Of a DNA stretch of 64,000 nt, positions 4,704 through 54,990 are shown piece by piece. How positions within the stretch are numbered: position 1 is the first letter of the stretch; each line of letters opens with the position of its first letter. This DNA is from an uncultured Sulfurovum sp. GTDB taxonomy: Bacteria; Campylobacterota; Campylobacteria; Campylobacterales; Sulfurovaceae. The notes under the pieces are model-generated. The model had not been told where the DNA came from, ran no database searches, and worked only from the letters and a program-made list of their open reading frames with translations. The stretch is taken from assembly GCA_913055205.1 (NCBI GenBank), contig CAJXJN010000005.1, positions 1 to 64,000 on the forward strand. Direction: 5' to 3'. The translations under genes and the position numbers were made by a program.

Positions 4704-7700
4704 CTATTTTCTAAAAAACAGTACATAGAGACCAGGTAAAACCAAGAGTGTTAAAATGGTCGAAGAGATGATACCTCCTGTGACTACTACAGAAAGTGGG
4801 TATTGTATCTCACTTCCTACCCCTGTAGCATAAAGTAGAGGTAAAATACCAAAGAGTGTAGTAAAGGCTGTCATAAGTACCGGTCTCAGACGTAATAGAG
4901 TTGCATTTTTGACCATATCTATCATTTTTACATCCGGGAATTTTTTGCGTAGTTCATCAATGAAAGAGATGAGTACAATACCGTTAAGTATGGCTATGGC
5001 AAAGATAGCGATAAACCCTACGATGGCAGAAACACTTAAGTATTCACCGCTGATAAGCAATCCTGCGATACCCCCTATGAGCCCTAACGGTACCCCAAGC
5101 AAAATCAAAAATGCTTTTTTAAATGAGTTAAATGCAGTATAGAGTAAGAGTAAAATAATCAGCAGTGTGATAGGGATGATCATTATGAGTGTAGCTGTAG
5201 CTTCCTGCATATTTTTAAAGTCACCTGCCCATTTAATATAGTACCCATCAGGGATGTCCACATTTTGTTTTATCTTTTTATTTGCTTCTTCTACAAAAGA
5301 TGCGATATCTCGATCTTCTACTTCCAGTGAAAGTACCATGTAGCGACTTAGATCTTCACGTTTAATGAATGCTGGTCCCTGTACTACAGTGATGTTACAC
5401 ACTTCTTTCAGAGAAACAATTTTACCACTTTTTGAGCGAAGGAGCAATGATTTAAGTGACTCAATATCTTTTTTGGCATTTTTCAATTTAGCAACAATAC
5501 CAAAACGTTTCACACCTTCTATTTTTTGTGTGACTGCTTCTTCACCGATACCATAACGAATCACTTGCATGATATCGGCTACACTTAAGCCATAGCGTGA
5601 AAGTGCCAAGTAGTCGGGTTTAATGTTGATCTGTGCCTGTCCTAGCTGTGTTTCAACCTCTGCATGATCAAGTCCTTCTATACCTGAAAGTGTTTGAGAA
5701 ATCTGTGCAGCAATGCTACTCATTACTTTCTGGTCTTCACCATAGATCTTAACGGCAAGTTCTGCGCTTACGCCTTCAAGTAACTCTTCTATACGCATGG
5801 CTATAGGTTGTGTAGAGATAAACTGTAAATAGCTAAATTTCTCTTTAAGCTTTTTGGTCATCTCCTTATCTAAGGCTGCTATCTCCTTGAAGTCCGGGTT
5901 TAGCGTTAAAAGTACTTCCATATAGTTTGCTTGTGCTGTCTCCCCCTTTTCACTTCTTCCTATCATACTTAGTACGGAAAGTACTTCATTTGGATAGGTC
6001 TCAAGTATAAATTTCTCGATGGCTTGTGCATTGTCAACACTTTGTGTGAGAGCGGTCCCTGGGATGGCAATCACTCTGTACATGATCGTCTCTTCATTGA
6101 GCTCTGGCATAAATTCCCGTCCTTGTTGGGAGAGTAATCCTGCCAATACAAAAAAGAGTAAAAAAGTAATAGTCACTATTTTTTTTGCATGATGCAAGCA
6201 GAAGACTAGCATAGGTGTATAAAATGATTTAATGGCTGTCATCAAGGGACTATTTGCATGTTTTCCCTGTTTTAGCATCATATAGGAGAGTACAGGTACC
6301 AACAACAGTGCTACTGCAAGTGAACCCAACATAACAAAAACAATGTCAAGTGCCATAGGAGTATAGAGTTTTCCTGCAAGTCCTTCTAAACTTAATAATG
6401 GGATGAATACGGTTGTGATGATAAGTAGGGCAAAAAGTACTGGTTTTGCTACTTCAGCCGTTGCTTTGGCAATCACTTCAGCTCTAGACATATTAGGATT
6501 ATCATGTAAAAGCCTGAAACTATTTTCCACTACTACGATAGTACCATCGACTATCATCCCTATGGCGATGGCAAGACCACTTAAACTCATAAGGTTTGCA
6601 GATATACCATACTCTTGCATCATTAAAAATGCGATGAGTAGTGAGATAGGCAGTGAAATGATCACAATAAATGCTGAGCGTAACTCAAACAAAAAGAGAA
6701 ACAAAATAATCGCAACAAGTACAGAACCTGTCAAAAGTGCATTTGTCATCGTACTTACTGCTTTATGTGTAATTTCTGTTCTATCGTAAATCACCTCTAA
6801 ACTTACACCTCCGGGAAGTGCTGCATTCACCAAAGGCATCTTAGCCTTTATGAGTTCTACCACTTTGGCTGCATTGGTACCAGAACGTTGGAGTACCATA
6901 CCGAAGACTCTCTCTTTACCATCTACACTTACTGCGCCAAAACGAGGTGCTTTGCCCTCTTGTACTGTAGCAACATCATTGATTGTGACTGCTTTTGCTT
7001 CTTTGGTTCGTATAATTGTATTACGTATGTCATCCATTGTTCCATAAAGGCCTGCACCCCGTATAAGGTATTGTTCTTTGTTGAATTCCAGGTATTGGCC
7101 ACCTACGGACTGGTTACTTTTTTCCAGCGCTTCTATGACTTCATTGTACGTGACATCTACAGACTGTAAACGTTTGGGATCTATAAGTACTTCATATTGC
7201 TTTTCAAAGCCACCCCAGGAAATAACTTCTTCTACACCATCTACAGATTTAAGCAGGGGTGCTACAACATACTCTTGTATTTGACGCAGTTGGCTTACTG
7301 TGTGCTTTTTATTACTATCTTTAAGTGCATACCAAAGCACTTGGCCTAGACCTGTCGTATTTGGACCCATGACCGGTGTTCCCCAGCCTTGAGGGATGTC
7401 TACCGTATTGAGCCGTTCTGTTACTAACTGACGTAACAAATAGGTATCGTACTCATCTTCAAAAAAGATAGAAACGTAAGAGAGCCCGAAGATAGAGTTT
7501 GAGAGTATCATCTTCACACCCGGCAAGCCGGACATGGCTGCCTCTATAGGATAAGTGATGAGTTTCTCAATGTCTTCAGCTGAGTTTCCGGGACTTTCAG
7601 TATAGATCACTACCTGTTTAGGTGTAATATCCGGAAAAGCATCTACAGGTATATCTTGATACGCTTTATATCCAAATCCGGAAATAGCGATAAAGAGTGC

Positions 7701-7748
7701 GAGCATGAGAAATTTATACTGTATAAGTATTTCAAAAAATCGTTTCAT
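4704..7748 (-). CDS. Heavy-metal RND efflux pump, CzcA/CusA family
   Basis: 1014-residue inner-membrane proton/metal antiporter of the HME-RND family, the engine of a tripartite efflux complex. It shows the usual two-fold architecture: helix 1, a large periplasmic loop (about 35-330), a bundle of helices, a second large loop (about 550-850) and a final helix bundle. The central helix motif IGMIVDGTIVVVEN carries the Asp-Gly pair typical of divalent-cation (Czc/Ncc-like) pumps rather than the DAA form of CusA, so Co/Zn/Cd/Ni are more likely substrates than Cu/Ag; this is inference. It is last in an operon behind the adaptor (9-base gap) and the outer-membrane channel. Confidence 0.93.
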   Translation of the reverse strand: MKRFFEILIQYKFLMLALFIAISGFGYKAYQDIPVDAFPDITPKQVVIYTESPGNSAEDIEKLITYPIEAAMSGLPGVKMILSNSIFGLSYVSIFFEDEYDTYLLRQLVTERLNTVDIPQGWGTPVMGPNTTGLGQVLWYALKDSNKKHTVSQLRQIQEYVVAPLLKSVDGVEEVISWGGFEKQYEVLIDPKRLQSVDVTYNEVIEALEKSNQSVGGQYLEFNKEQYLIRGAGLYGTMDDIRNTIIRTKEAKAVTINDVATVQEGKAPRFGAVSVDGKERVFGMVLQRSGTNAAKVVELIKAKMPLVNAALPGGVSLEVIYDRTEITHKAVSTMTNALLTGSVLVAIILFLFLFELRSAFIVIISLPISLLIAFLMMQEYGISANLMSLSGLAIAIGMIVDGTIVVVENSFRLLHDNPNMSRAEVIAKATAEVAKPVLFALLIITTVFIPLLSLEGLAGKLYTPMALDIVFVMLGSLAVALLLVPVLSYMMLKQGKHANSPLMTAIKSFYTPMLVFCLHHAKKIVTITFLLFFVLAGLLSQQGREFMPELNEETIMYRVIAIPGTALTQSVDNAQAIEKFILETYPNEVLSVLSMIGRSEKGETAQANYMEVLLTLNPDFKEIAALDKEMTKKLKEKFSYLQFISTQPIAMRIEELLEGVSAELAVKIYGEDQKVMSSIAAQISQTLSGIEGLDHAEVETQLGQAQINIKPDYLALSRYGLSVADIMQVIRYGIGEEAVTQKIEGVKRFGIVAKLKNAKKDIESLKSLLLRSKSGKIVSLKEVCNITVVQGPAFIKREDLSRYMVLSLEVEDRDIASFVEEANKKIKQNVDIPDGYYIKWAGDFKNMQEATATLIMIIPITLLIILLLLYTAFNSFKKAFLILLGVPLGLIGGIAGLLISGEYLSVSAIVGFIAIFAIAILNGIVLISFIDELRKKFPDVKMIDMVKNATLLRLRPVLMTAFTTLFGILPLLYATGVGSEIQYPLSVVVTGGIISSTILTLLVLPGLYVLFFRK

Positions 7749-7757
7749 AGTATGCTC

Positions 7758-8855
7758 CTAGTGACCATGTTCGCCAAGTGAAGATTTCAGCATCATAGAC
7801 TTGACAAAATATACACCTTCACTGACGTACTCTTCATCTGCATTAATCCCCTCTACAGCTACATAGTCACCGGTATATGCGATGATTTTGACGACTTTTG
7901 GGGTATATGGAAGCTCTTCATGTTCATCATGACCTTCTTCATCATGTCTTTCTTCATCATGTCTTTCTTCATCATGATGCTCTTCAACAAATACTACCCA
8001 TTCACCTTGAAAAAGTGTCAAAGCACTCTTTTTAACCATCATGACATTACGATAAGGCGCTAGTGAAATTTCTATTTGTGTATAGGCACCAAGTAGGAGA
8101 TTTTCAGGACTTTTTTCTATCTGAAACAGTACTTTTGCACGTTGTGTCTCTTTGTCTATGTGTGGCAGTAGTTGTACAAAATGGCATGGATACTGTTTTT
8201 TTGCAACACTTAACCATCCTTTGGTCTGAGCTGATACTTTCATGGCATCATCTACCCCAAGATAAGCGATAGCATAGTATCCACTTTGACTGACCAATGT
8301 CATTAAAGATGTTTTCGCATCTACATTACTGTGAAGTGGAACCAATATTCTACCCACTACACCATCGGCATGTGCATAGAGTATAAACTGATCTGTTGCT
8401 TTAGTGAGTTTTGATGGTGTAATACCCAATGATTCCAATTGTGAAGCTAAAGCATTTTGTTTAGAACGTATCTCTTCCAGCGCTATAATAGAGTTACTCA
8501 GATCATTTTTCGAAGTTAGTCTCTTTTTATAGAGCTTTCTAGTTGTGCTCAACTGTTCTTTTGCTGCTTTTACTTGCTGCAAAAGTGCTATATATGTGGC
8601 ACTCATCTTAGAGAGTTTTATAGACTCAATAAGTACGACTTTATCACCCGATTTTACTTTTTCTCCAGCTTTCACAAAATAGGCTTCCACATGTCCGGAA
8701 AGTCTGGAGACGATTTCTTGTTTCTGATCAGAGAGTTGGGTAATTTCAGCATTGGTTTGTATGATTTTCCCTAAAGGTCTCATCTGTGCATGTTCCACTG
8801 TGATTTGATTTGCCAAACCCAATAGTGGTAATAGCAATAGTAAGTATTTAGTCAT
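7758..8855 (-). CDS. Periplasmic adaptor of metal efflux system, CzcB/CusB-like, His-rich
   Basis: Membrane-fusion protein linking the RND pump to its outer-membrane channel. I use the ATG at 8855 (365 residues), not 8957: it starts a clear signal peptide (MTKYLLLLLPLLGLANQ), has aagga upstream, and overlaps the channel gene's stop by 8 bases. The middle has the barrel/lipoyl/helical-hairpin pattern of the family (SGHVEAYFVKAGEKVKSGDKV). Near residues 290-315 there is an unusual insert of repeated HDEER/HDEEG units with about nine His, coded by 15-bp tandem repeats. A His/Glu-rich stretch like this probably binds metal, as in CzcB-type proteins. Confidence 0.9.
   Translation of the reverse strand: MTKYLLLLLPLLGLANQITVEHAQMRPLGKIIQTNAEITQLSDQKQEIVSRLSGHVEAYFVKAGEKVKSGDKVVLIESIKLSKMSATYIALLQQVKAAKEQLSTTRKLYKKRLTSKNDLSNSIIALEEIRSKQNALASQLESLGITPSKLTKATDQFILYAHADGVVGRILVPLHSNVDAKTSLMTLVSQSGYYAIAYLGVDDAMKVSAQTKGWLSVAKKQYPCHFVQLLPHIDKETQRAKVLFQIEKSPENLLLGAYTQIEISLAPYRNVMMVKKSALTLFQGEWVVFVEEHHDEERHDEERHDEEGHDEHEELPYTPKVVKIIAYTGDYVAVEGINADEEYVSEGVYFVKSMMLKSSLGEHGH
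7917..7985. repeat. 15-bp tandem repeat inside the adaptor gene
   Basis: The unit catgtctttcttcat recurs three to four times with small changes and codes for HDEER/HDEEG repeats on the minus strand. Copy number could vary by slippage in steps of five residues without breaking the frame. Confidence 0.75.
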
Positions 8856-10032
8856 TGTATTGTCCTTGTAAAAAACGTAATTGTATTTTTTGATTGTTAA
8901 TCTTTTTTTGTGTCTGAAGCAGTGATTTCCGTGTTTGTATGAGTCTGCTTTTTGCATTCATCAGTTCAAAAAGTGAGCCTTGAGCTATTTGATACCCTTC
9001 TTTGAGCAGTGCGCTCAGTGTTTGTTGTTCTTTTTGAAGTACTTTTAGCGAGTGGTATTGTGCAGAGAGTTCTTTTATAGAAGCTTTCAGCATTTGTTTT
9101 TGTGATTTCAGATCAAGAGAGAGCTGTGCGTTATCTAGCTTTAACTGTTGCATTTTTAACTTAGCTAAGGTCTTCTCTTCTTCTTTGTTGTGTCGTACAG
9201 GCAAGGGGAGAGAAACACCTAATCTCAAGATAGACTGGTCAGGTTCTTTTTCTATACCGGCAGAAATCTCATAGCTGTTAAAGCGACTTTCACTCATACG
9301 TATTCCGCTTGTATAGAGTTTCTCTTTGGCCAATAATATTTTCTGTTTTGGACTTAACTTAGATGACTTTTTTGTCTTATGAGAAACAGAGTAGATAAAC
9401 TTTTTTTCTAAAGAGACCTTTTTGTTAAATCCTGCTATCGCTAAGAGTTGATAGTAAAGTGTTCCTGCTTGCTGTCTGGTAGTGTGCATCTGTGTTTTAA
9501 GTGTCAGTGTTTCCGTTTTGGCTTGCAAGTATGCTACTTTGTTCTCTGACCCATTTTCATAGCGTTCTTTTACCATAAGAGTAACTCTGTTTGAGAGTTT
9601 GTACTCTTGTTGGAGCAATGAGAGAAGCTTACTTTGATAGACATACTCCGTATAGAGTTCTTCAAGTGTTTTAATGTATCCCGCTTTTCCCTGGGCTACG
9701 TAAGCTTTACGAAGCAGGGTAGAAGCATAGGCTTTATCTCTAAGCCCATCTAAATAATTTTCAGTACGGACAGTTTGTGATACACTGACACTGTATCCAT
9801 ATCTGGAAGAGGAGAAATCGGGATCATATTTCCCTACTTCAAGGTTAAGTGCAGGGTTTTCGGTTCTTAAAAGTATATTATTCTCTTGTTCAGTGGTTTG
9901 AAGTGAGAGGGCTTGACTTTGTAGTATCTTTGAGTGTTTAAGTGTATGTTTCTTAAACTTTGTATAACTCATTCCAAAAAGAGTGAGAGAAAAAGTAAAA
10001 AAAAGCATGATAGTTTTTTTAAGATTCGGCAT
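8848..10032 (-). CDS. TolC-family outer-membrane efflux channel (CusC/CzcC-like)
   Basis: 394-residue outer-membrane channel subunit of the RND complex. It begins with a short signal peptide (KTIMLFFTFSLTLFGMS) and is dominated by long heptad-like helices (residues about 100-190 and 265-394), as in the TolC helical barrel, with the two internal halves recognisable. It is first in the operon channel-adaptor-pump and overlaps the adaptor start by 8 bases. Assignment is by architecture and neighbours; sequence identity to named members cannot be checked here. Confidence 0.85.
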   Translation of the reverse strand: MPNLKKTIMLFFTFSLTLFGMSYTKFKKHTLKHSKILQSQALSLQTTEQENNILLRTENPALNLEVGKYDPDFSSSRYGYSVSVSQTVRTENYLDGLRDKAYASTLLRKAYVAQGKAGYIKTLEELYTEYVYQSKLLSLLQQEYKLSNRVTLMVKERYENGSENKVAYLQAKTETLTLKTQMHTTRQQAGTLYYQLLAIAGFNKKVSLEKKFIYSVSHKTKKSSKLSPKQKILLAKEKLYTSGIRMSESRFNSYEISAGIEKEPDQSILRLGVSLPLPVRHNKEEEKTLAKLKMQQLKLDNAQLSLDLKSQKQMLKASIKELSAQYHSLKVLQKEQQTLSALLKEGYQIAQGSLFELMNAKSRLIQTRKSLLQTQKKINNQKIQLRFLQGQYND

Positions 10033-10178: not shown

Positions 10179-10308
10179 GAAGTGGAGACTTCAGTCCCAC
10201 TTAGAATCTATATGCAGTGTATATATTTACGCCAAAAGAAGCATAATTAACAAAGGAATAAATTTTTTTGAGCAAATAAACTTTTGGTGGGACTAAAGTC
10301 TCCACTTC
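10179..10308. repeat. Inverted pair of the gtgggactgaagtctcc repeat
   Basis: The left copy (10179-10200) is the exact reverse complement of the repeat at 42-63; the right copy (10287-10308) is in the forward orientation with one mismatch. Together they form a 130-bp inverted pair, the layout called a REPIN. They occupy the gene-free stretch 10115-10357, where nothing else is visible. Confidence 0.6.
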
Positions 10309-10357: not shown

Positions 10358-10690
10358 TTAAACAATAGGAGGTTTTATAGTAGTCTCTTTAAAAGGAGGG
10401 TGGTAGAGAAGCATCTCTTGTGTTGGTTGTTCGTTATGTGTTAAAGTATCAAAGTCTATGTTTGGTGTATTAAGGATAGCCATAAAATGAAAGAGGTGAT
10501 GCATGTCGCATAAGTCACCACACTCATCAGCAATATTTTTCTCCATCACATACTCTGTAAGTGTATCATGATGACACTCATTTTCCATAGCAATGATAGA
10601 GGCATGTGTAATATTAAAAAACAGTGACAGTAATAATAAAAGCTTTATTATTTTTAATTTCAATACTCTACCTTTTTTCATTTGTTTCAT
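10358..10690 (-). CDS. Small exported Cys/His-rich protein
   Basis: 110 residues with a signal peptide (KIIKLLLLLSLFFNITHAS) followed by a short mature part carrying CHHD, CGDLCDMHHLFH and a Pro-rich tail ending KPPIV. Cys and His density suggests metal binding. Position matches the other small exported protein at 13985-14275: both follow an OprD-like porin sequence and precede metal-transport genes. The KPP tail recalls DUF2946-type proteins, but this is a weak resemblance. The start could be 10690 or 10681; neither has a good ribosome site. Confidence 0.6.
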   Translation of the reverse strand: MKQMKKGRVLKLKIIKLLLLLSLFFNITHASIIAMENECHHDTLTEYVMEKNIADECGDLCDMHHLFHFMAILNTPNIDFDTLTHNEQPTQEMLLYHPPFKETTIKPPIV

Positions 10691-10696
10691 TATAGC

Positions 10697-10785
10697 TTAA
10701 AATGTATAATTTGGAAAGACTCTTAGATTTTGAACTGATTCATCTCTATTATCAATATCGCTATAGATAGCAGAGCATTTAAATG
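10697..10785 (-). pseudogene. C-terminal fragment of an OprD-like porin
   Basis: The last 28 codons (SAIYSDIDNRDESVQNLRVF...) match the end of the porin at 14345-15478 (SAIYSDIDDREDSFKNLRVF...), including the terminal aromatic residue needed for outer-membrane insertion. Upstream of this the frame has no porin-like sequence, so it is a remnant. It precedes a small Cys/His protein just as the intact porin does, pointing to a duplicated and decayed cassette. ORF-track entries here are by-products of this fragment. Confidence 0.75.
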
Positions 10786-10889
10786 ACCCTGGTATATAGA
10801 TATGTTGCAACCGAGAAACTGAAGAAAGGAAGTTTTCAGGGGAAAAAGTATACTTTTTTGCACTATGTAAAAAGTACAATATAAAAGAT

Positions 10890-10918
10890 GCCTGAAAGAC
10901 GTTAATAGTCTTTTAGGC
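10890..10918 (-). terminator. Hairpin at the end of the ABC permease gene
   Basis: Arms gcctgaaagac and gtcttttaggc pair with one mismatch around a 7-base loop and include the permease stop codon. On the minus strand the stem is followed by a T-rich stretch (atcttttatatt). Confidence 0.6.
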
Positions 10919-11653
10919 ACTAAACACTAAAGCACTCAAAACACCTATGAGAGAAGCAATGAACACGATAGTATATCCTGTAGGCAAGTCAAAAAAATAA
11001 GAGAGTATCATCGATATGATAATGATCAATGAACCAACTATCCATGCGAAAGGTAATTTTATAAATTTTGTCTGAATCAAAGATAAAAATGAGGGGACAA
11101 TTAAAAGTACAAAAACCACCAATACCCCTGCAAGTTGTACAGATGATGTCACTGTCAAAGCTAAAAGTCCAAAGAAAAACATCTCCTTGGCTATCCCTGA
11201 TAGCTTATGGTGAAAAAGAAAGAAGAGCATAGCAATACCACTATAAAGAATCAATGGTTCCCATAGGTCGGTTGCTATCGTAAAAAGTATATCTGTTGCT
11301 TGAAGCTTATTAAAGAGTTCTGTTCCTTGTGTGGTATTGGAAAGTAGCACAATAATGCTACTCGCCCCCAATGCATACAGCATACCAATAAATGCTTCAA
11401 TATGTTTTACACGATATGTAGCTGCAGAGATAAGCAAAGCCCCAATAAGTGCAAAGAGCAATGTTAAAAGGAAGGTATACCCTCCCTCAAAAAACAACAG
11501 ACTCACTGCTACACCAATAGCAGCGAATTGACCAATGGCAAGATCGGTGAATATCACCCCTCGTTTGATGATCTCCAGCCCAAAAATCGTATGAATGAAT
11601 ACCAGCAGTATCGCCAAGGTGAATGCCGGCCATAAAAGAGTAATTAGTGACAT
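10913..11653 (-). CDS. Metal ABC transporter permease, ZnuB/MntB-like
   Basis: 246-residue membrane protein of the ABC-3 family with about eight hydrophobic helices. It forms the membrane channel of a Zn/Mn/Fe importer. Its start overlaps the substrate-binding gene by 10 bases, so the two are translated together. No gene for the ATPase subunit lies next to it or elsewhere in the window, so energy must come from an ATPase coded elsewhere or the system is incomplete. It ends in a hairpin that closes the operon. Confidence 0.88.
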   Translation of the reverse strand: MSLITLLWPAFTLAILLVFIHTIFGLEIIKRGVIFTDLAIGQFAAIGVAVSLLFFEGGYTFLLTLLFALIGALLISAATYRVKHIEAFIGMLYALGASSIIVLLSNTTQGTELFNKLQATDILFTIATDLWEPLILYSGIAMLFFLFHHKLSGIAKEMFFFGLLALTVTSSVQLAGVLVVFVLLIVPSFLSLIQTKFIKLPFAWIVGSLIIIISMILSYFFDLPTGYTIVFIASLIGVLSALVFSA

Positions 11654-12525
11654 AGTCGTTTGGCTATGGTTTCATAAAGTGCTTCCAAAGTCTCTGTGTC
11701 GTTGATACTGCCTACATCATGAGGAATGACAACAACCTTCGCACCTGTTTTAGAGGCAATGAACCGTGCCGTTTTTTTCTCATGATACGGATCTTGCAAA
11801 ATAGTTTTGATCTTTTCTTTTTGCATTTTCTGTATCAATGCGAGGGTATGTTTTGAACTGGGTGCGATCCCCGGAAGCGGTTCGATGGTGGCTACAGCAT
11901 GTATATCATAGCGTTTTAGCAGATAGTTGTAAAGTTCATGGTATTGTATGACTTGTTTGCCTTTGCATGCTTTCATCTGTCTGTCAAATGTGTTGAGAAA
12001 TGCATGCCATCTGCTGATGAATTGGCTAAGGTTATGCTGATATGCTGCCTTGTGAGCCGCATCTAAACGTGAGAGTTTCTGTGTCAGATATTTTGCAATA
12101 GGAATGATGTTGTGTGGATCGGTGTCGAAGTGAGGATTGCCCTCTGGATGGACATCCCCATAGGCACGGGAAACAGCAGTTGGTTTATCTATCAGTGCGA
12201 TGGCATGGCTGGCATCTACAAATCCTTCTGTGCCTATGCGTACTTTAGGGTTATTCGCACTTTTAAGTAAGGGGGGTAACCAGCCTATTTCCAGTCCTGC
12301 CCCATTGGCTACGAGCATATCAGCCCGTGCAATGGCAGGAATGAGTGAAGGTTTGGGGATGATGAAATGTGGATCAAATTTAGGCGAAGCCAACACTTTG
12401 ACTTTGACATTGTCTCCCCCGACAGCTTGCACGATCTTTCCCAGGTAAGGATAACTTGCGACAACATTGAACTGCGCAAATGCCATAGCCGATAATAATA
12501 TAAAGATAGAGAATGTTTTTTTCAT
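11644..12525 (-). CDS. Metal-binding protein of ABC importer, ZnuA family
   Basis: 293-residue periplasmic solute-binding protein of family A1 (PF01297 type) with signal peptide MKKTFSIFILLSAMAFA. It has expected metal-site segments: KFDPHFIIPKPS near residue 50, HPEGNPHFDTDP near 127, a YHELYNYL histidine near 190 and an acidic QDPYHEKK region. There is no long His-rich loop of the classical ZnuA type, so zinc versus manganese or iron is open. It lies 9 bases after the outer-membrane gene and overlaps the permease gene. Confidence 0.88.
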   Translation of the reverse strand: MKKTFSIFILLSAMAFAQFNVVASYPYLGKIVQAVGGDNVKVKVLASPKFDPHFIIPKPSLIPAIARADMLVANGAGLEIGWLPPLLKSANNPKVRIGTEGFVDASHAIALIDKPTAVSRAYGDVHPEGNPHFDTDPHNIIPIAKYLTQKLSRLDAAHKAAYQHNLSQFISRWHAFLNTFDRQMKACKGKQVIQYHELYNYLLKRYDIHAVATIEPLPGIAPSSKHTLALIQKMQKEKIKTILQDPYHEKKTARFIASKTGAKVVVIPHDVGSINDTETLEALYETIAKRLCH

Positions 12526-12534
12526 GTTGTACTC

Positions 12535-13776
12535 CTAAAATGCATGTGCGCCGTGTGCGCCTGTTTCAACAGTAAATCCCAAGAGGATCTCAGAAAGATT
12601 TTTGCGCTCATCATTGCTACCGAAGGCTTTCGATCTATCGTATGTGTACTGTAGTCTGAATTTTGTAAATTCAAAGGGTTTATACTCTACCATAGCCGTA
12701 TATCGGTCAAGGTCGTCAGGTTGATCGGAGATATTTTTAAATAGACTGTCATACCGAATACCTGTCTTCCAGTTTTGATCATATTGATAGACCAGTTGCG
12801 TGTAGTATCCTGCCTGTTTTTCTGTACCGTTCTCTGTTTTTTTATCACGATAGAGTAGTTCAGATTGCCATAAAAGATTGCTGTAGCTGTCCAGAGCAGT
12901 TTTTATGGTCAGGTCAGTGCCATATAGGTTCGTGTCGTGCCCATCTTCGTTTTTACCGTGTGCGATGGAAGTACCTGCTAATAGGATTGTAGTATCGGTG
13001 ATGTCCATACTTCCTTTGAGGTAGCCTATATAGAGGTTGTTTTTTTCTGTATCTCCAAAACTGACATCGTTGCTGCCTTGTAAAGCTTCAAGTCCAGCCA
13101 TCATATAGGTATCGGTAGGGAGTACCCATTGGAGCTGTACACCTGCATCGTTGATCCCCTCTCCGCCGAGGAGTGCTTCGTAAACAAGCGGTTTTGATGT
13201 AAACTTCCATGCATGTTGATGGATCGCATTGATACGGCCAAATTCACTTCTGAATTTTCCGATTTTGGCACGAAGACCGTAAGGGAATGTTCGGGAAGTT
13301 ATGTATGCCTCTTCTATCTCGAATTCATCTGGACTCAGATGGAAAATGGCATCTGCATCAAAATAAGGACCTACGGTCGAATGCAGGGCAAGTTCCGCAT
13401 AGTTAAAGTTAAATCCACGGTTTCTGTTAAAAGGGATCTCGCTCTCTTCGTTGGGATCGTATTCGCTAAATCCCGGTATATGATAGGTTTCATATGTGCT
13501 ATTGTCTATATTTCTTCCGACAGCTGAACCGTCCAGGATCAATGCAATGTCAGGCAGAAATGATTTTTGATCAAATGTTGCAGAAGGTGCTTGTGTGGTT
13601 TTATTAGTGTTTGCAACTGTCTCTATCTGTTTTTTTTCAAGTTCTTCCACGCGTTTTTGCAAGGCTTGTGTTGCGTGTATCTGTTTGGCTAATTGTGCTT
13701 TGAGTTGTGCCAGGTCGCTTTGTGCAAAAAGTGTTGCAGAAGCAGCCAGCGACAAGAAGATCATTTTTTTTGTCAT
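12535..13776 (-). CDS. Outer-membrane protein of the metal uptake operon
   Basis: 413-residue predicted beta-barrel protein. After a signal peptide (MTKKMIFLSLAASATLFAQ) comes a coiled-coil segment (about 20-55, LAQLKAQLAKQIHATQALQKRV), as in trimeric porins, then alternating aromatic/polar strands. It heads the operon with the ZnuA- and ZnuB-like genes, 9 bases apart, so it probably admits the metal or a metal complex through the outer membrane. Close homologues are usually annotated as hypothetical or zinc-regulated porins. No TonB box or plug domain is visible. Confidence 0.75.
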   Translation of the reverse strand: MTKKMIFLSLAASATLFAQSDLAQLKAQLAKQIHATQALQKRVEELEKKQIETVANTNKTTQAPSATFDQKSFLPDIALILDGSAVGRNIDNSTYETYHIPGFSEYDPNEESEIPFNRNRGFNFNYAELALHSTVGPYFDADAIFHLSPDEFEIEEAYITSRTFPYGLRAKIGKFRSEFGRINAIHQHAWKFTSKPLVYEALLGGEGINDAGVQLQWVLPTDTYMMAGLEALQGSNDVSFGDTEKNNLYIGYLKGSMDITDTTILLAGTSIAHGKNEDGHDTNLYGTDLTIKTALDSYSNLLWQSELLYRDKKTENGTEKQAGYYTQLVYQYDQNWKTGIRYDSLFKNISDQPDDLDRYTAMVEYKPFEFTKFRLQYTYDRSKAFGSNDERKNLSEILLGFTVETGAHGAHAF

Positions 13777-13860
13777 GGGTCTTTTCTCCTAAAATAATTA
13801 AAATAATGGAACCCTCTGATTATTTTACAAATTTATCATCTGTCTTATTCTAAATTTATA

Positions 13861-13924
13861 CCCCAAGGGCATTTCCTTCGGGCATTCAGAAATCCCTATA
13901 GTGGATACTGTAAATATCCTTGGG
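13861..13924. repeat. Imperfect palindrome in the intergenic gap
   Basis: ccccaagggcatttccttcgggc at the left and ccttggg about 50 bases to the right form inverted arms (cccaagg / ccttggg). It sits between the small Cys/His gene and the metal outer-membrane gene, and may be a terminator for the former or a REP-like repeat. Confidence 0.35.
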
Positions 13925-13984
13925 ATGTAAGTTCAAGATGATGTGAAGCTCATCAGAGAGTTTAATGAAGTTGATGTTTTTGTT

Positions 13985-14275
13985 TTATCTGTTCCAGAAG
14001 AAAAAAGGAGGTGCTTGTGCGTTAAAACCTTTTGCAATGGTAAAGTAGAGAATAGTTTCATAAAATATGATCTGTTCAAAAACAGTATTCCAAACTGCAG
14101 GTAGAATGCCAGGCTCAGGCATATCTCCACTATGAAGATTTTTAACGACCACACATACTTTACAATTAGCATGAGACTCAAGTGCATCATGATGGATATG
14201 CGTTGCTCCCAGATAGGAAGAGAACAGGTAGAAAAAGAGGAGAAAACGTATGATGTGTTGTTTTAGCTGTCTCAC
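13985..14275 (-). CDS. Small exported protein with HxH and CxxC motifs
   Basis: 96 residues, GTG start with aggag six bases upstream. After a signal segment (IIRFLLFFYLFSSYLGA) the mature part opens ATHIHHDALESHANCKVCVVVK and ends in a GFNAQAPPFFF tail. The HIH, His and CxVC residues could form a metal site. A clear relative is encoded at 34624-34929 (ATHIHTD...HADTCQVCVLVK). The tail with APP recalls DUF2946, a family seen near copper genes, but the match is loose. It follows the OprD-like porin by 69 bases. Confidence 0.65.
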   Translation of the reverse strand: MRQLKQHIIRFLLFFYLFSSYLGATHIHHDALESHANCKVCVVVKNLHSGDMPEPGILPAVWNTVFEQIIFYETILYFTIAKGFNAQAPPFFFWNR

Positions 14276-14344
14276 AAATTTCTCCTGTTTTTTTGAAAGT
14301 ATATTCTATTTTTTATTTATTATGGATTGAAGTGTTGTTATAGC

Positions 14345-15478
14345 TTAAAATATATAATTTGCAAAGACCCTTAAGTTTTTAAATGAATCTTCTCTATCGT
14401 CTATGTCGCTATAGATCGCAGAAAAATTTAAACTGTCGTTATATTTATATGTTGCGATGAGGTCATATTCATTTGCATCATCCTTTGTACCATTGCTATG
14501 TACATCTGCATTTGCAGTTAAAACAAGCCCCTCTAATCCAATTACAGAAGCATCCCACTCCAGTGTATAAAGTATGTCGTCTCCATCATGTCCTGCTTCT
14601 GACAGGGTATGGTGTTCTGCATTGCTTACAAAAGGTCCACCACCGAAAAAGTTTTCTGCTGCTCTGCCATCTGTTTTATTGTAGGCAATAGATGCTGTTA
14701 ATCCTGTACTTTTCAAACCGAGAGAGCCGCTGACCCCATAGATAGTTGATCTTGTAGCATCATCATAGTCTTGTAAAGCATATTGAGCAGTAAGACCATA
14801 GGTAAGGCTATCTGTTTCTGCCTCATAATTTACTTCCATGTAGGTTAATTTTGCAACATTATTGATATTGTAAAACCACCCTGAAAATGTAGTGTTTTTA
14901 ACTCCTTCATAGGTAAGTCCCAAAATCTGTACGCCATCATTTCCATTGAGTTTGATAAAACTGCTTGGTGCGTCACTATCTACGCCAGACCATTTTTGGA
15001 CTTGAGAGAAAAACAGGGTTGTATCGGGTATATCTTTGTTGATGAGAGTGAAAGCTTCAAAGGTATTGGGTACCATACCTACATCATCACTGTCAGCAAA
15101 TGGTGTTTCCAATGGTTGTCGTCCTATAATGAACGTTGTATTGCTATAGGTTCCTTTGAGGTAGGCTTCTGCCAGAGTAGTGTAGTTCTCATTATTCTCA
15201 TCAAAAAAAGGAATACCTTCAAAACCTTTTTTACCATTACCTTGAGAGGTAAAAAGTGTTGCCCCAAACTGAAAACCGTGATAAGATGCTGTTTCCATAT
15301 GAAGTTTTAATCCTACAGCAAGTTCATCATCAGTATTTTCACCTATCCGGTTATTTTGATATCCGATTTTTACGGCACCCTCATAATTTGCATTTTCAAA
15401 GGCATTACTTAAATTGTTTGCATAGATACCAATAGTCATTATCATTAAAAGAATGATACTTCTCTGCAATGTGCTCAT
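14345..15478 (-). CDS. OprD-like outer-membrane porin
   Basis: Predicted 18-strand-type porin for small solutes, 377 residues from the ATG at 15478. I prefer that start over 15511 because it begins the signal peptide (STLQRSIILLMIMTIGIYA) and has aaggaa upstream. The mature part has OprD/Campylobacterota porin features: FIIGRQPLETPFADSDDVGM near residue 110 and regular alternating strands, with a terminal Phe. It lies downstream of feoA (gap about 50 bases) and upstream of a small HxH/CxxC protein. A fragment of a near-identical C-terminus is at 10697. Confidence 0.85.
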   Translation of the reverse strand: MSTLQRSIILLMIMTIGIYANNLSNAFENANYEGAVKIGYQNNRIGENTDDELAVGLKLHMETASYHGFQFGATLFTSQGNGKKGFEGIPFFDENNENYTTLAEAYLKGTYSNTTFIIGRQPLETPFADSDDVGMVPNTFEAFTLINKDIPDTTLFFSQVQKWSGVDSDAPSSFIKLNGNDGVQILGLTYEGVKNTTFSGWFYNINNVAKLTYMEVNYEAETDSLTYGLTAQYALQDYDDATRSTIYGVSGSLGLKSTGLTASIAYNKTDGRAAENFFGGGPFVSNAEHHTLSEAGHDGDDILYTLEWDASVIGLEGLVLTANADVHSNGTKDDANEYDLIATYKYNDSLNFSAIYSDIDDREDSFKNLRVFANYIF

Positions 15479-15526
15479 TTTTATTTCCTTGATTAATGAT
15501 TTAAAAGACAAGGCAATGCCTTGTCT

Positions 15527-31920: not shown

Positions 31921-32607
31921 ATGAAAAAGTTTACACTTTCTGTAGTAACGGTTTTGGCAATGAGTACATTTGCAGTAGCAGGTGGAGATATAGTACCAGT
32001 AGTTGAACCGGTAGTGGAGGCGCCGCCACCGGCAGCAAAGACAGGATTCTATGTAGGTGGGGCTATCAGCTTGATTCAGAATGATTTTAGATCTTGGTAT
32101 TATTCTGAGTATTACAATGAAAATCGTACAATGGCGATAGGCAATACGGATCATATAGGAGGGATGCTGCAGGTCGGATATAAATTCAACCCTTATCTCG
32201 CAGTGGAGACACGCTACTGGATCGCAGGGGATGAAGATTGGCAAGATACAGAGAACTGGGGTGATAATGACACGTTTACAACAGAATTTGATGCAATGGG
32301 ACTCTATCTTAAACCTATGTACCCTGTAATGGATGGACTGGATGTCTATGCTTTGCTTGGGTTCGATATTATGAATTATGATTTAACTGCAAAAGATGGG
32401 GATGGTAGTCCATATGCACATCGTAATTTTTCAGACACCGCTTTCTCGTGGGGCCTGGGCGCTTCCTATGCCGTCAATGACTCGCTTGCTGTCTTTGTGG
32501 ACTATGTAAGACTCTATGATGATACGATCCAGGTATTCTATAATAGTGACGTCTTTGCAGATATCACTTCAGATACCTGTAACTTCGGTATTACATACAG
32601 TTTCTAA
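31921..32607 (+). CDS. Outer-membrane beta-barrel protein, tandem copy 1
   Basis: 228 residues with signal peptide MKKFTLSVVTVLAMSTFAVA and mature start GGDIVPVVEPVVE. The rest is an eight-strand OmpA/OprF-like barrel (KTGFYVGGAIS at about 39-49; MLQVGYKFNPYLAVETRYW; ending GITYSF). There is no peptidoglycan-binding OmpA C-domain. Copy 2 at 32852 has the same length, the same signal peptide and near-identical flanks. Differences cluster in predicted surface loops (DFRSWYYSEYYNEN versus DFRAHSGGDGYDD), suggesting diversification of exposed parts. Confidence 0.85.
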   Translation: MKKFTLSVVTVLAMSTFAVAGGDIVPVVEPVVEAPPPAAKTGFYVGGAISLIQNDFRSWYYSEYYNENRTMAIGNTDHIGGMLQVGYKFNPYLAVETRYWIAGDEDWQDTENWGDNDTFTTEFDAMGLYLKPMYPVMDGLDVYALLGFDIMNYDLTAKDGDGSPYAHRNFSDTAFSWGLGASYAVNDSLAVFVDYVRLYDDTIQVFYNSDVFADITSDTCNFGITYSF

Positions 32608-32851: not shown

Positions 32852-33538
32852 ATGAAAAAGTTTACACTTTCTGTAGTAACGGTTTTGGCAATGAGTACAT
32901 TTGCAGTAGCAGGTGGAGATATAGCACCGGTAGTAGAGCCGGTAGTAGAGGCAACAGCACCGGCAGCAAAAACAGGGTTCTATGTAGGTGGAGCTATCAG
33001 TTCGTTTAAAAATGACTTTAGAGCTCATAGTGGAGGGGATGGTTATGATGACACAATGGCACAAGGAGATACAGACCCTATTGGCGGGATGCTGCAGGTT
33101 GGGTATAAGTTCAATCAATACCTGGCAGTGGAGACGCGTTACTGGCTCGCAGGGGATGAGGAGTGGACAGATCTGGAGAATTGGGGAGATTATCCTTTCA
33201 CAACGGAATTTGATGCAATGGGACTCTACCTTAAACCTATGTATCCGGTAGCGGATGGGCTGGATGTCTATGCTTTGCTTGGGTTTGCCCTTATGAATTA
33301 TGATCTGACTGGAAAATATCCGGATGGTACTCCATATGCACACCGCAATTTCTCGGATACGGCGTTCTCTTACGGAGTGGGAGCTTCATATGCCATCAAT
33401 GATTCATTTTCAGTATTTGCAGACTATGTGAGACTCTATGATGATGATATTAAAGTATTCTTCTACGGTGATGGAGAGTTTGATGCTGGAGAGATTACTT
33501 CTGATACCTTTAACTTCGGTATTACATACAGTTTCTAA
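32852..33538 (+). CDS. Outer-membrane beta-barrel protein, tandem copy 2
   Basis: 228-residue paralogue of the gene at 31921, 931 bases downstream in the same orientation. Signal peptide identical, mature N-terminus GGDIAPVVEPVVEATAPAAK, then the same barrel with altered loops. It keeps an aaaggag ribosome site at the same distance. The duplication unit includes promoter, gene and terminator, about 0.93 kb. Function is probably structural or small-solute passage, which is inference. Confidence 0.85.
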   Translation: MKKFTLSVVTVLAMSTFAVAGGDIAPVVEPVVEATAPAAKTGFYVGGAISSFKNDFRAHSGGDGYDDTMAQGDTDPIGGMLQVGYKFNQYLAVETRYWLAGDEEWTDLENWGDYPFTTEFDAMGLYLKPMYPVADGLDVYALLGFALMNYDLTGKYPDGTPYAHRNFSDTAFSYGVGASYAINDSFSVFADYVRLYDDDIKVFFYGDGEFDAGEITSDTFNFGITYSF

Positions 33539-33713: not shown

Positions 33714-34541
33714 CTAACCTCTTTTAAAGATCAATTCCTGAACTTCTTTTCCTATGGCTTGGGCAACTACGTTGCATTTTACGATAAAAAGAAAATAAAC
33801 AGGACGATCAGCTTCCAGATAAAGACTTTCAAAATTTCCCATACCTTTGGCCAATACGATATCGGCACGATCAAAAATGGCTTTTGACTCTGCATTGGCC
33901 TCTTTAAGATCATATCCGGGAGTTGCAACGCCTGTATCAATAATATGAGCACAGTTTTTGAGTATCTGTGCTTCCTTCACTGTGACATCATTGATAATAG
34001 GTTTTCCCCTTACAAAATAATATACGTCTACATTGTAGCTCTTTTTGATCATTTCGATCAGTAGTTTGTCAAAGATATGTTCACCGACATTATCACCAAT
34101 GAATACCAGCTCTTTCGCCTCTTTCAGTTCTTGTTCAAAATCAGCAAGATCATCTATGCCAAAAGAGCGATGAAAATGACTTTGGATCGTCGCATTAAGA
34201 TCAAGCTGATTTTGTGCACCAAAGTCGATCACATTACCGATAGTAGCCAGTTTGATCGCCTCTTGGATTGTATGTACGAAATCTGTATTGACCTCAAGGG
34301 CAAGTTTGGTTGCATGTTCTTTTGCAAGTGCTACAGGATCAGCTTCACCGGTGATCTCTGAAATCATACTATAAATACTTTTAGCTATCTGTGGAGGTGT
34401 ATGGTTTAGATCATGATCTATCAATAGTTGTGCAGTATGATCAAGAAGCGTTTTGCTTTTGTTATCATCTAGTCCAAGTAATTTAGATACTTTGAGTGTC
34501 TGATTCATGAGGCAGGTGATGCAGTCAGGTTTAATATTCAC
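33714..34541 (-). CDS. DUF89/ARMT1-like metal-dependent phosphatase
   Basis: 275-residue protein of the DUF89 family, whose members act as damage-control phosphatases on sugar phosphates or nucleotides. Recognisable parts are the N-terminal KPDCITCLMNQ with two Cys (7 and 10), FIGDNVGEHIFDKLLIE near 140, RGKPIINDVT near 165 with the metal-site Asp/Asn, and DIVLAKGMGNFESL near 230. Subfamily I proteins have this Cys-containing N-terminus. No operon partner. Substrate unknown. Confidence 0.85.
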   Translation of the reverse strand: MNIKPDCITCLMNQTLKVSKLLGLDDNKSKTLLDHTAQLLIDHDLNHTPPQIAKSIYSMISEITGEADPVALAKEHATKLALEVNTDFVHTIQEAIKLATIGNVIDFGAQNQLDLNATIQSHFHRSFGIDDLADFEQELKEAKELVFIGDNVGEHIFDKLLIEMIKKSYNVDVYYFVRGKPIINDVTVKEAQILKNCAHIIDTGVATPGYDLKEANAESKAIFDRADIVLAKGMGNFESLYLEADRPVYFLFIVKCNVVAQAIGKEVQELIFKRG

Positions 34542-34623: not shown

Positions 34624-34929
34624 TATGCTTCGAAAATAAACAAGTTATGGAGTCATAGTATCAAACAGTTTTTACTTAAAATTTTATTTCTTTTTTATCT
34701 AACCTCCTCCTTTCTAAGTGCAACACATATACATACCGATGATGAGGCACATGCCGATACGTGTCAAGTCTGTGTCCTCGTGAAGGTTTTCCATAGTGCT
34801 GATGTACCAAACCTTGGAGTTGATATCCCTCTCTTTAATGCTGTTTATGATACGATAGAACTCACTTACAGTTACACTGCTACTTCTGTCTATAAAGGAT
34901 ATCGAAGCACTGCACCCCCTTCATATTGA
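34624..34929 (+). pseudogene. Relative of the small HxH/CxxC exported protein, no normal start codon
   Basis: This open frame is not in the ORF track. It reads SIKQFLLKILFLFYLTSSFL, then ATHIHTDDEAHADTCQVCVLVK, and ends GYRSTAPPSY, matching the protein at 13985-14275 over its full length. No ATG, GTG or TTG occurs in frame before the signal segment; the nearby ATG at 34647 is in another frame and meets a stop after three codons. Either a one-base frameshift has inactivated the gene or an unusual start codon is used. It precedes an outer-membrane gene, repeating the pairing seen elsewhere. Confidence 0.6.
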
Positions 34930-34987
34930 ACTTCTTATACACATTAACAACGATCAGTAATTATTAATATCAATGAAGGATAACTCT

Positions 34988-48701: not shown

Positions 48702-48953
48702 ATGACACAAATTTTAGCAAACTATACAGCAAGTATCTCTGAACTGAAAAAAAGTCCCTCTTCTGTCATAGAAGAGGCACATGGTGAGACAGTGGCTATT
48801 TTGAACCATAATAAGCCCAGTGCCTATTTGGTTCCCAGTGATGTATATGAGAATATGATGGATATTCTGGATGATTACTATCTAATGAAAGAGGTAGAAG
48901 AGAGATTAAATGATGGACAAAAGCCTGTCAAGGTCAATATAGATGAGCTATGA
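48702..48953 (+). CDS. Antitoxin, RelB/Phd type
   Basis: 83 residues. The N-terminal half (ANYTASISELKKSPSSVIEEAHGETVAILNHNKPSAYLVP) is a Phd/YefM-like DNA-binding fold, and the acidic C-terminal tail would wrap the toxin. It overlaps the toxin gene by 11 bases. As usual for such pairs it should repress its own promoter. Confidence 0.88.
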   Translation: MTQILANYTASISELKKSPSSVIEEAHGETVAILNHNKPSAYLVPSDVYENMMDILDDYYLMKEVEERLNDGQKPVKVNIDEL

Positions 48954-49230
48954 GCTTCATTTTAAACCTAAAGCACTTAAAGAGTGGAAAAAACTTAATC
49001 ATAGTGTAAAAGAGCAATTTAAAAAAAAGCTAAAAGAACGATTGGAACAACCAAAAGTTGTAAAAGACAGGCTTAAAGGGTATGAAAGTATCTACAAAAT
49101 AAAATTACGAAGTGTTGGCTATAGATTAGCCTATGAAGTAAAAGATGAAGAGGTAATTGTGTTGGTTCTGGTTGTAGGCAAAAGAGAGAACAATAGTATA
49201 TATGATAATCTAAAAGCAAGAAGTGAGTAG
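48943..49230 (+). CDS. RelE-family toxin
   Basis: 95 residues; basic mRNA-interferase fold (SYELHFKPKALKEWKKL start; KIKLRSVGYRLAYEV with the key Arg; VLVVGKREN near the end). It would cut mRNA at the ribosome when free of antitoxin. The next gene's ATG follows its stop directly, so the TRAP gene may be co-transcribed with this toxin-antitoxin pair. Confidence 0.9.
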   Translation: MSYELHFKPKALKEWKKLNHSVKEQFKKKLKERLEQPKVVKDRLKGYESIYKIKLRSVGYRLAYEVKDEEVIVLVLVVGKRENNSIYDNLKARSE

Positions 49231-54250: not shown

Positions 54251-54990
54251 CTCGTTCCACCTCTCCGCAGGTGGAATGCATAGGCAATTCCAACATAGTC
54301 CTCATCATAAAAAGTCTACCAAAATCTATCAATCCCTATTAACCCTTCTTCTCCATGATAGTCTCTGGCACTGGAATACCTCCAGTGTATAGCTTCATCT
54401 ACATAGCCATGTTTTACAGGGTTTTGATGTATATACTCTATCTTACTTTTTAACATGAGATCATTCTGCATTAGTTTTGGCTGATATCCTTCTTCCCATA
54501 CTTGGAATGTCTTCTCTTTCCTGTGAGCCTTTTTATAAAAAGATAACTGATCCAATAAGGTAGTGACATTTTCTTTATGCAATAGTTTTAAAATCTCAAC
54601 CGCAGTAAATTTTTTAAAAGATTCCATACTCTTTTGTAAATCATCACTGCGTAATACCATATGCAAGTGGTTTTCAAGTATGACATAAGCGTGTAGTTTT
54701 AAGTTGTCCTGCTTCTGTAAGAATTTGAGACAATTCAATACAATATCTACACTCTCTTTTCTTGTAAATATGGGTAACCAGTGTAAGATAGTACAGGTTA
54801 CAAAATGTGGATGTGTCGGTTCAATTATTTTGTATCTACTTCTGCCCATGATTACTCTTTTTTGTTTATTGTAGTAGAATTTAGAGGTGTAGAGTGATTA
54901 TATGTCAGATTGTAATATTTTTAGCCATATCATATTGAGGATAACGTTATGACTGGCCTATACATTCCACCTACGGAGAGGTGGAACGAG
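54251..54990. mobile_element. Complete RAYT element bracketed by 35-bp inverted REPs
   Basis: Left end 54251-54285 (begins ctcgttccacctctccgc) and right end 54956-54990 are inverted copies with only two mismatches. Each end is itself a hairpin (ttccacct...aggtggaa), the classic REP form. Between them lies one intact transposase gene on the minus strand. The layout fits a REP-associated tyrosine transposase with its own substrate repeats, total about 740 bp. Confidence 0.85.
54316..54849 (-). CDS. REP-associated tyrosine transposase (RAYT, Y1 family)
   Basis: 177-residue single-strand DNA transposase/endonuclease. The HUH motif is the LENHLHMVL segment near residue 60, with HAYVILENHLH typical of the family, and the catalytic Tyr is expected in the later helix (IEYIHQNPVKHGYV near 140). 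The start MGRSRYKI and tail WRYSSARDYHG are family features. It should process the REP hairpins that flank it. It is intact and probably functional, unlike the two related remnants nearby. Confidence 0.9.
   Translation of the reverse strand: MGRSRYKIIEPTHPHFVTCTILHWLPIFTRKESVDIVLNCLKFLQKQDNLKLHAYVILENHLHMVLRSDDLQKSMESFKKFTAVEILKLLHKENVTTLLDQLSFYKKAHRKEKTFQVWEEGYQPKLMQNDLMLKSKIEYIHQNPVKHGYVDEAIHWRYSSARDYHGEEGLIGIDRFW

Follow-up and report, generated by a model that had tools for sequence, protein, structure and literature searches.

CruR (bp2923) of Bordetella pertussis, a DUF2946 protein with 45 residues between its CxxC motif and a RAPP motif, is the product of a copper-sensing upstream open reading frame (ORF) (PMC9426467). 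Copper control by CruR needs both RAPP and CxxC, and the spacing matters (PMC9426467); in vitro, the ribosome arrests while its P and A sites are occupied by the two proline codons (PMC12992588). The RAPP-like motifs of the RQH family of arrest peptides include HAPP and QAPP (PMC10987492). Outer-membrane efflux (OEP) genes are the commonest class of neighbours of proteins resembling CutF, a sensor from Rhodobacter capsulatus (PMC9973294). Here we analyze three small ORFs, designated A, B and C, in a stretch of 64,000 nt from an uncultured Sulfurovum sp. (positions 1 to 64,000 of contig CAJXJN010000005.1; ‘the window’ below). We consider it probable that such ORFs encode in-cis metal-sensing leader peptides, which switch translation of the downstream genes for an outer-membrane porin and zinc uptake. 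The assignment to CruR/CutF-like leaders is based on the x-A-P-P ending, its spacing from CxxC and the pairing of the stop codon region with the Shine-Dalgarno (SD) sequence of the next gene.

ORF A and its relatives share with CruR a small product with an export signal, probably encoded at the head of an operon, a CxxC motif, a RAPP-type end near the stop codon and 45 intervening residues (46 by the distance count used below); the next gene encodes an outer-membrane protein, which is an importer in the CruR system. CruR itself responds to copper and acts by Rho-dependent termination over a 162-nt gap. Here the gap is ∼50 nt, the SD is predicted to be sequestered in a hairpin, the operon consists of porin and znuAB genes, HxH occurs as an extra motif, and the proline end also takes the forms RSPP, QAPP, HAPP, TAPP and NAPP. 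As in CutF (PMC9973294), an exported sensor with a Cys motif, a proline-rich end and a stem-loop that hides the next SD, the three elements are found together; CutF differs in that it switches copper detoxification on when copper is present (PMC9973294). The arrest peptides of the RQH/RAPP type, ApdA, ApdP and SecM, also carry a C-terminal RAPP-like motif and are encoded by small exported ORFs upstream of the controlled gene (PMC10987492, PMC10951233, PMC12992588). These peptides monitor protein export, whereas the leaders analyzed here carry a putative site for metal and are encoded ahead of genes for metal transport.

No zinc-uptake target of CutF-like leaders is named in the main text of PMC9973294, where zinc has 0 occurrences, and neither the two founding papers nor a 2025 survey use the word in their main texts. 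A literature search on zinc and arrest peptides returned nothing relevant; supplementary tables, which may list some of the proteins, were outside its scope. While the parts are known, we did not find descriptions of the zinc-uptake target, the spread over Campylobacterota and Sulfurihydrogenibium, the added HxH or the joining of a CutF-like SD stem to the spacing seen in CruR.

The minus strand of the window carries, in reading order, feoB, feoA, an OprD-like porin gene, ORF A, a second outer-membrane gene, znuA and znuB, followed by a porin remnant, ORF C, czcC, czcB and czcA (Table 1). Pro-Pro within the last 14 residues was found in 7 of 282 window ORFs of at least 60 codons; the three of these seven that also have a Cys pair are exactly A, B and C, an agreement beyond what chance would give.

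The product of ORF A is composed of an N-terminal hydrophobic helix, the motif HIHHD...H..CKVC, 45 residues and QAPP near the C-terminus. In the AlphaFold model helix 2-25 is confident and the remainder is of low confidence; among solved structures we found no credible homologue. A query with this single protein detected relatives in 31 of 249 genomes, and a profile search among genomes of the order found the family in 72 of 399. More members were located on contigs labelled Sulfurimonas, Hydrogenimonas and Helicobacteraceae and in two Sulfurihydrogenibium metagenome-assembled genomes (the contig scan used profile A2, as the first profile, A1, was too diverse). Residues H26, C38, C41, P89 and P90 are invariant across 26 aligned sequences, and in this respect an earlier note on this DNA, which had been made from the letters alone and whose proposal required the Cys and His residues to be conserved, was right. 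Median dN/dS among close pairs is 0.18, with all 72 of 72 pairs below 0.5 (pairs are not independent). With ratios this low, translation of the peptide and selection on it are very probable.

The position of the proline motif is nearly fixed: the last x-x-P-P ends one to six residues ahead of the stop codon in 92 of 93 members. The variants are RAPP (52), RSPP (15), HAPP and NAPP (6 each), QAPP and TAPP (5 each), RDPP (2) and others (2). Counted from the second Cys of CxxC, the motif begins at a distance of 45-47 in 78 of 89 members, and of 46 in both A and B. The family also shows the characteristics of CutF-like proteins, namely small size, a signal helix, a metal motif, Pro-Pro in the last 15 residues and a next gene on the same strand. 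A direct search with DUF2946 (Pfam PF11162) matched 3 of 120 genomes, one of them above the cut-off; therefore a family-specific profile was built. As one relative passes the PF11162 cut-off (26.4 versus 23.7 bits) and others match below it (16-20 bits) over the same part of the profile, the family looks like a divergent branch.

Gene neighbourhoods were compared for 93 members with sufficient flanking sequence, by means of a simple ORF caller and profile labels. In 91 of the 93 loci a gene on the leader's strand follows at no more than 250 nt, with a median gap of 52 nt. This gene is a homologue of the porin of the window's znu operon in 79 loci, an outer-membrane protein of ∼280 residues of the type found after ORF B in seven, a gene of TonB-receptor size in four and another gene in one; znuA lies downstream in 67 of the 93 loci. 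Among 399 genomes, leader and znu porin co-occur in 65, the leader is found alone in 7 and the porin alone in 13. By these counts the conserved unit is leader, porin, znuA and znuB. The closest upstream gene shares the leader's strand in 50 of 90 loci; hence the leader is not surely the first gene of the operon everywhere.

The earlier note had proposed a recurring cassette, an OprD-type porin followed by a small exported Cys/His protein. The pair does exist in the window at ORF A, the product of ORF C is indeed encoded beside a porin remnant (its DNA aligns to the 3′ end of the OprD-like porin gene), and B is encoded beside an outer-membrane-type gene, as that note had it. Recurrence was not borne out: an OprD gene is the closest one upstream in 3 of the 90 loci, and the conserved partner is the downstream gene. 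OprD adjoins the leader in this window and at L098, L124 and L129, the last of which was excluded from the 90 by the flank filter. Nor do the three small proteins form one family, since C was missed by both the A query and the A-family profile and has relatives of its own.

In most loci the codons after Pro-Pro together with the stop codon (often TCTCCTAA) base-pair with the SD of the following gene. This SD has a mean unpaired probability of 0.085, against 0.184 in dinucleotide shuffles; blocking the footprint of a ribosome placed at x-x-P-P raises it to 0.27, against 0.20 in shuffles (Wilcoxon test, 6e-8 and 8e-9). Duplex energy is -9.9 kcal/mol for cognate arms versus -7.0 kcal/mol for swapped arms (91 loci; z -13.6), and 0 of 3000 permutations reach the pairing of cognate arms, which indicates that the two arms have co-evolved. 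For the 59 loci with divergent right arms z is -10.6. Control values are -3.6 (all loci) and -2.0 (divergent set) where porin and znuA meet, -2.3 for the SD of the leader itself with the gene upstream, +0.8 inside the leader and +1.7 for the sequence after the stop codon.

The Pro-Pro codons (CCTCC) were also considered as a co-evolving anti-SD sequence. This candidate was rejected, as cognate pairs were equal to permuted ones (z -0.7); the pairing signal therefore resides in the codons after Pro-Pro and the stop codon. The stop codon covaries with the facing base (TAA with T, TGA with C; Fisher test, 1.5e-6) and so does the third position of the final codon (C with G, T with A; 1e-8). Since the register of covariation was picked by pairing and none of these tests is corrected for phylogeny, we trust the permutations and controls over the P-values.

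In the window, hairpin A is a 15-bp duplex of -13.9 kcal/mol, present in the minimum free energy structure of the whole stretch as well; hairpin B has -9.9 kcal/mol with cognate versus -5.2 kcal/mol with swapped arms. The gap between leader A and the porin gene (13785-13984) contains an extra structured segment, ∼25 nt of which recur elsewhere in the genome.

ORF B, with the same design as A and homologous to it (42% identity, E 2.4e-18), has no ATG, GTG or TTG start; it likely starts at ATC, position 34660, after GGAG. Apparent ATC/ATT starts ∼7 nt past the SD were seen in four leaders (this one, L114, L128 and L131), none of which has a suitably placed ATG, GTG or TTG; possibly these are rare start codons. 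A DUF89-like ORF (33714-34541) lies divergently upstream of leader B, and the same arrangement is found at L125 and L128. The gene after leader B has no Pfam match.

As to the metal, the substrate-binding protein encoded by znuA has AztC as its best NCBIfam match (4.1e-32, below the cut-off of that family), and in the sequences read the third ligand position of ZnuA is His (QYHELYNY), which we take to be the zinc type in this family. A ZnuA/AztC-type protein with this His makes zinc the likely metal of the leader A/ZnuA system. The porin between leader A and znuA is modelled by AlphaFold as an N-terminal coiled coil and a beta-barrel (pLDDT 78.6), and Foldseek relates it to known porins (best E 5.9e-12).

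Building on the conservation, gene order, spacing and RNA pairing described above, we infer arrest, a metal and a sign of regulation as follows. The N-terminal helix would bring the nascent chain to the membrane, and the ribosome would arrest at the C-terminal x-A-P-P. At this point HxH...CxxC, ∼45 residues back, would already be outside the exit tunnel, as in the CruR geometry. The arrested ribosome would cover the last leader codons, which otherwise pair with the next SD. At low metal the SD would be freed, and porin and znuAB would be translated (uptake on); metal, most likely zinc for leader A, bound at HxH/CxxC would release the arrest and let the hairpin close (uptake off). In its full extent, this would be a zinc-sensing nascent-chain switch that exposes the SD and turns porin-ZnuAB on in zinc scarcity, Campylobacterota-wide and in Sulfurihydrogenibium, beside or instead of the Zur repressor; to this complete version we would give an even chance.

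Leader C would be a counterpart with the opposite regulatory sign, placed at czcCBA efflux genes. Its family has relatives in 46 of 249 genomes, most of which end in [RK]PPI followed by another one to three residues; 24 of the 27 relatives that have CxxxC have 44 residues between it and the residue before Pro-Pro. At 18 of 30 loci the ORF that follows these relatives encodes a CzcC homologue, and the pairing of arms gives z -5.0. CutF-like proteins likewise may have CxxxC and precede an OEP gene; small metal-linked ORFs before copper or czc genes are also known in CopL (Xanthomonas) and CzcI (Cupriavidus), the latter reported without a proline motif. Against the CopL model leader C scores 12.9 bits (cut-off 40). 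These features fit a CutF/CopL-like leader ahead of czcCBA. A repetitive extragenic palindrome (REP)-like sequence of 19 bp, GTGGGACTnnAGTCTCCAC, forms an inverted pair (10182-10200 and 10287-10305) between leader C and czcC; the genome contains 27 matches to it, against 2 to the reversed control, and ORF 54316-54849 resembles, by eye, a REP-associated tyrosine transposase.

Several observations weigh against metal-sensing arrest as the function of A, B and C. The permutations on which the pairing relies are uncorrected for phylogeny, and similarly related controls give small yet nonzero values. The window copies A and B have QAPP and TAPP rather than RAPP, and we know of no demonstration that TAPP is an arrest motif. 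Leader A runs three residues beyond the stop codon of its nearest relatives, its gap to the porin gene is 208 nt instead of the usual ∼50, and neither it nor the other window proteins match the DUF2946 profile. In the case of C, the fold is not clear because the REP pair and a tiny ORF separate the leader from czcC. Finally, for the metal of ZnuA there are only the family and the ligand pattern to go by.

Of the other explanations, the one that shares most with ours is a CruR-type leader that senses copper, or several metals, instead of zinc. CxxC is the copper motif in CruR and a few members head genes of TonB-receptor size; still, the usual operon is outer-membrane porin-ZnuA-ZnuB with His as the third ZnuA ligand, and the HxH motif is additional. 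We give this variant, which keeps the proposed mechanism, a modest chance. A leader that serves translational coupling only, with ribosomes that end at its stop codon opening the hairpin and with neither arrest nor metal sensing, would agree with a hairpin that spans the stop codon and with the short gaps. It would leave unexplained the invariant His, Cys and Pro-Pro, the fixed 45-residue spacing and the purifying selection on the peptide, and is in our opinion improbable.

Closest to the idea of the earlier note is a periplasmic chaperone for zinc or another metal, co-expressed with the downstream porin and ZnuAB. The export helix and the conserved HxH/CxxC, encoded among uptake genes, speak for it, and that part of the note stands: the proteins are predicted to be exported and are linked to metal by their context near outer-membrane and metal-transport genes. 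Yet structure beyond the helix is of low confidence, the C-terminus is arrest-like at a fixed spacing, the RNA pairs with the next SD, and for CruR and CutF, its analogues, no protein was detected in cells. The fixed distance to x-A-P-P and the stop-SD pairing fit a regulatory leader better than a carrier, and a chaperone has little probability. Metal delivery through the upstream OprD porin to such a carrier is hardly credible: the four adjacencies mentioned above favour it, but OprD is rarely upstream, the upstream gene is on the leader's strand in about half of the loci only, and downstream one nearly always finds another kind of outer-membrane gene, in most cases with znuA/znuB.

Table 1. 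Coordinates of candidate leaders, their predicted RNA arms and associated genes in the window
Feature	Position	Strand	Evidence or remark
OprD-like porin, upstream of leader A	14345-15511	-	Pfam OprD 2.9e-12; adjoins feoA/feoB
Candidate leader ORF A, 96 residues	13985-14275	-	GTG start with AGGAG just 5′
Putative metal site of leader A (H26, H28, H29, H35, C38, C41)	14153-14200	-	Invariant or nearly invariant columns
Putative arrest motif QAPP of leader A	14006-14017	-	Codons CAA GCA CCT CCT
Left arm of predicted SD-sequestering hairpin A	13992-14006	-	Last QAPP base and codons after it
Right arm of predicted hairpin A	13780-13794	-	Holds SD of porin gene, TTAGGAGAAAAG
Outer-membrane beta-barrel porin, 413 residues	12535-13776	-	N-terminal coiled coil; proposed regulated gene 1
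ZnuA-type substrate-binding protein	11644-12525	-	Pfam ZnuA 5.6e-49
ZnuB-type ABC permease	10913-11653	-	Pfam ABC-3 6.8e-7; after znuA in relatives too
3′-end remnant of OprD-like porin gene	10690-10808	-	DNA alignment to 3′ end of the 14345 porin; outside leader design
Candidate leader ORF C, 110 residues	10358-10690	-	CxxxC-44-KPP; heads czcCBA
CzcC-like outer-membrane efflux protein	8848-10032	-	Pfam OEP 6.4e-13; next after leader C
CzcB	7758-8957	-	After CzcC
CzcA	4704-7748	-	After CzcB
Candidate leader ORF B	34660-34929	+	Homologue of A; TAPP at 34909-34920
Left arm of predicted hairpin B	34918-34929	+	Second Pro codon to stop
Right arm of predicted hairpin B	34970-34979	+	Over SD (GAAGGA) of next gene
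Outer-membrane-type protein, 278 residues	34988-35824	+	After leader B

No Rfam families were found at positions 8000-37000 of the window, and a promoter and terminator scan gave no signal above shuffles. Elsewhere in the window, two similar outer-membrane-type ORFs of 228 residues are arranged in tandem (31921-32607 and 32852-33538), and ORF 48943-49230 looks, by eye, like a RelE-type toxin.

Metal-sensing arrest leaders have so far been described mainly for copper. If the zinc reading is true, it explains the presence of a conserved small ORF, for which we found no described function, before the porin-znuAB operon. A zinc version at porin-znuAB in many Campylobacterota would then widen the reach of the mechanism to a further metal and to two phyla.

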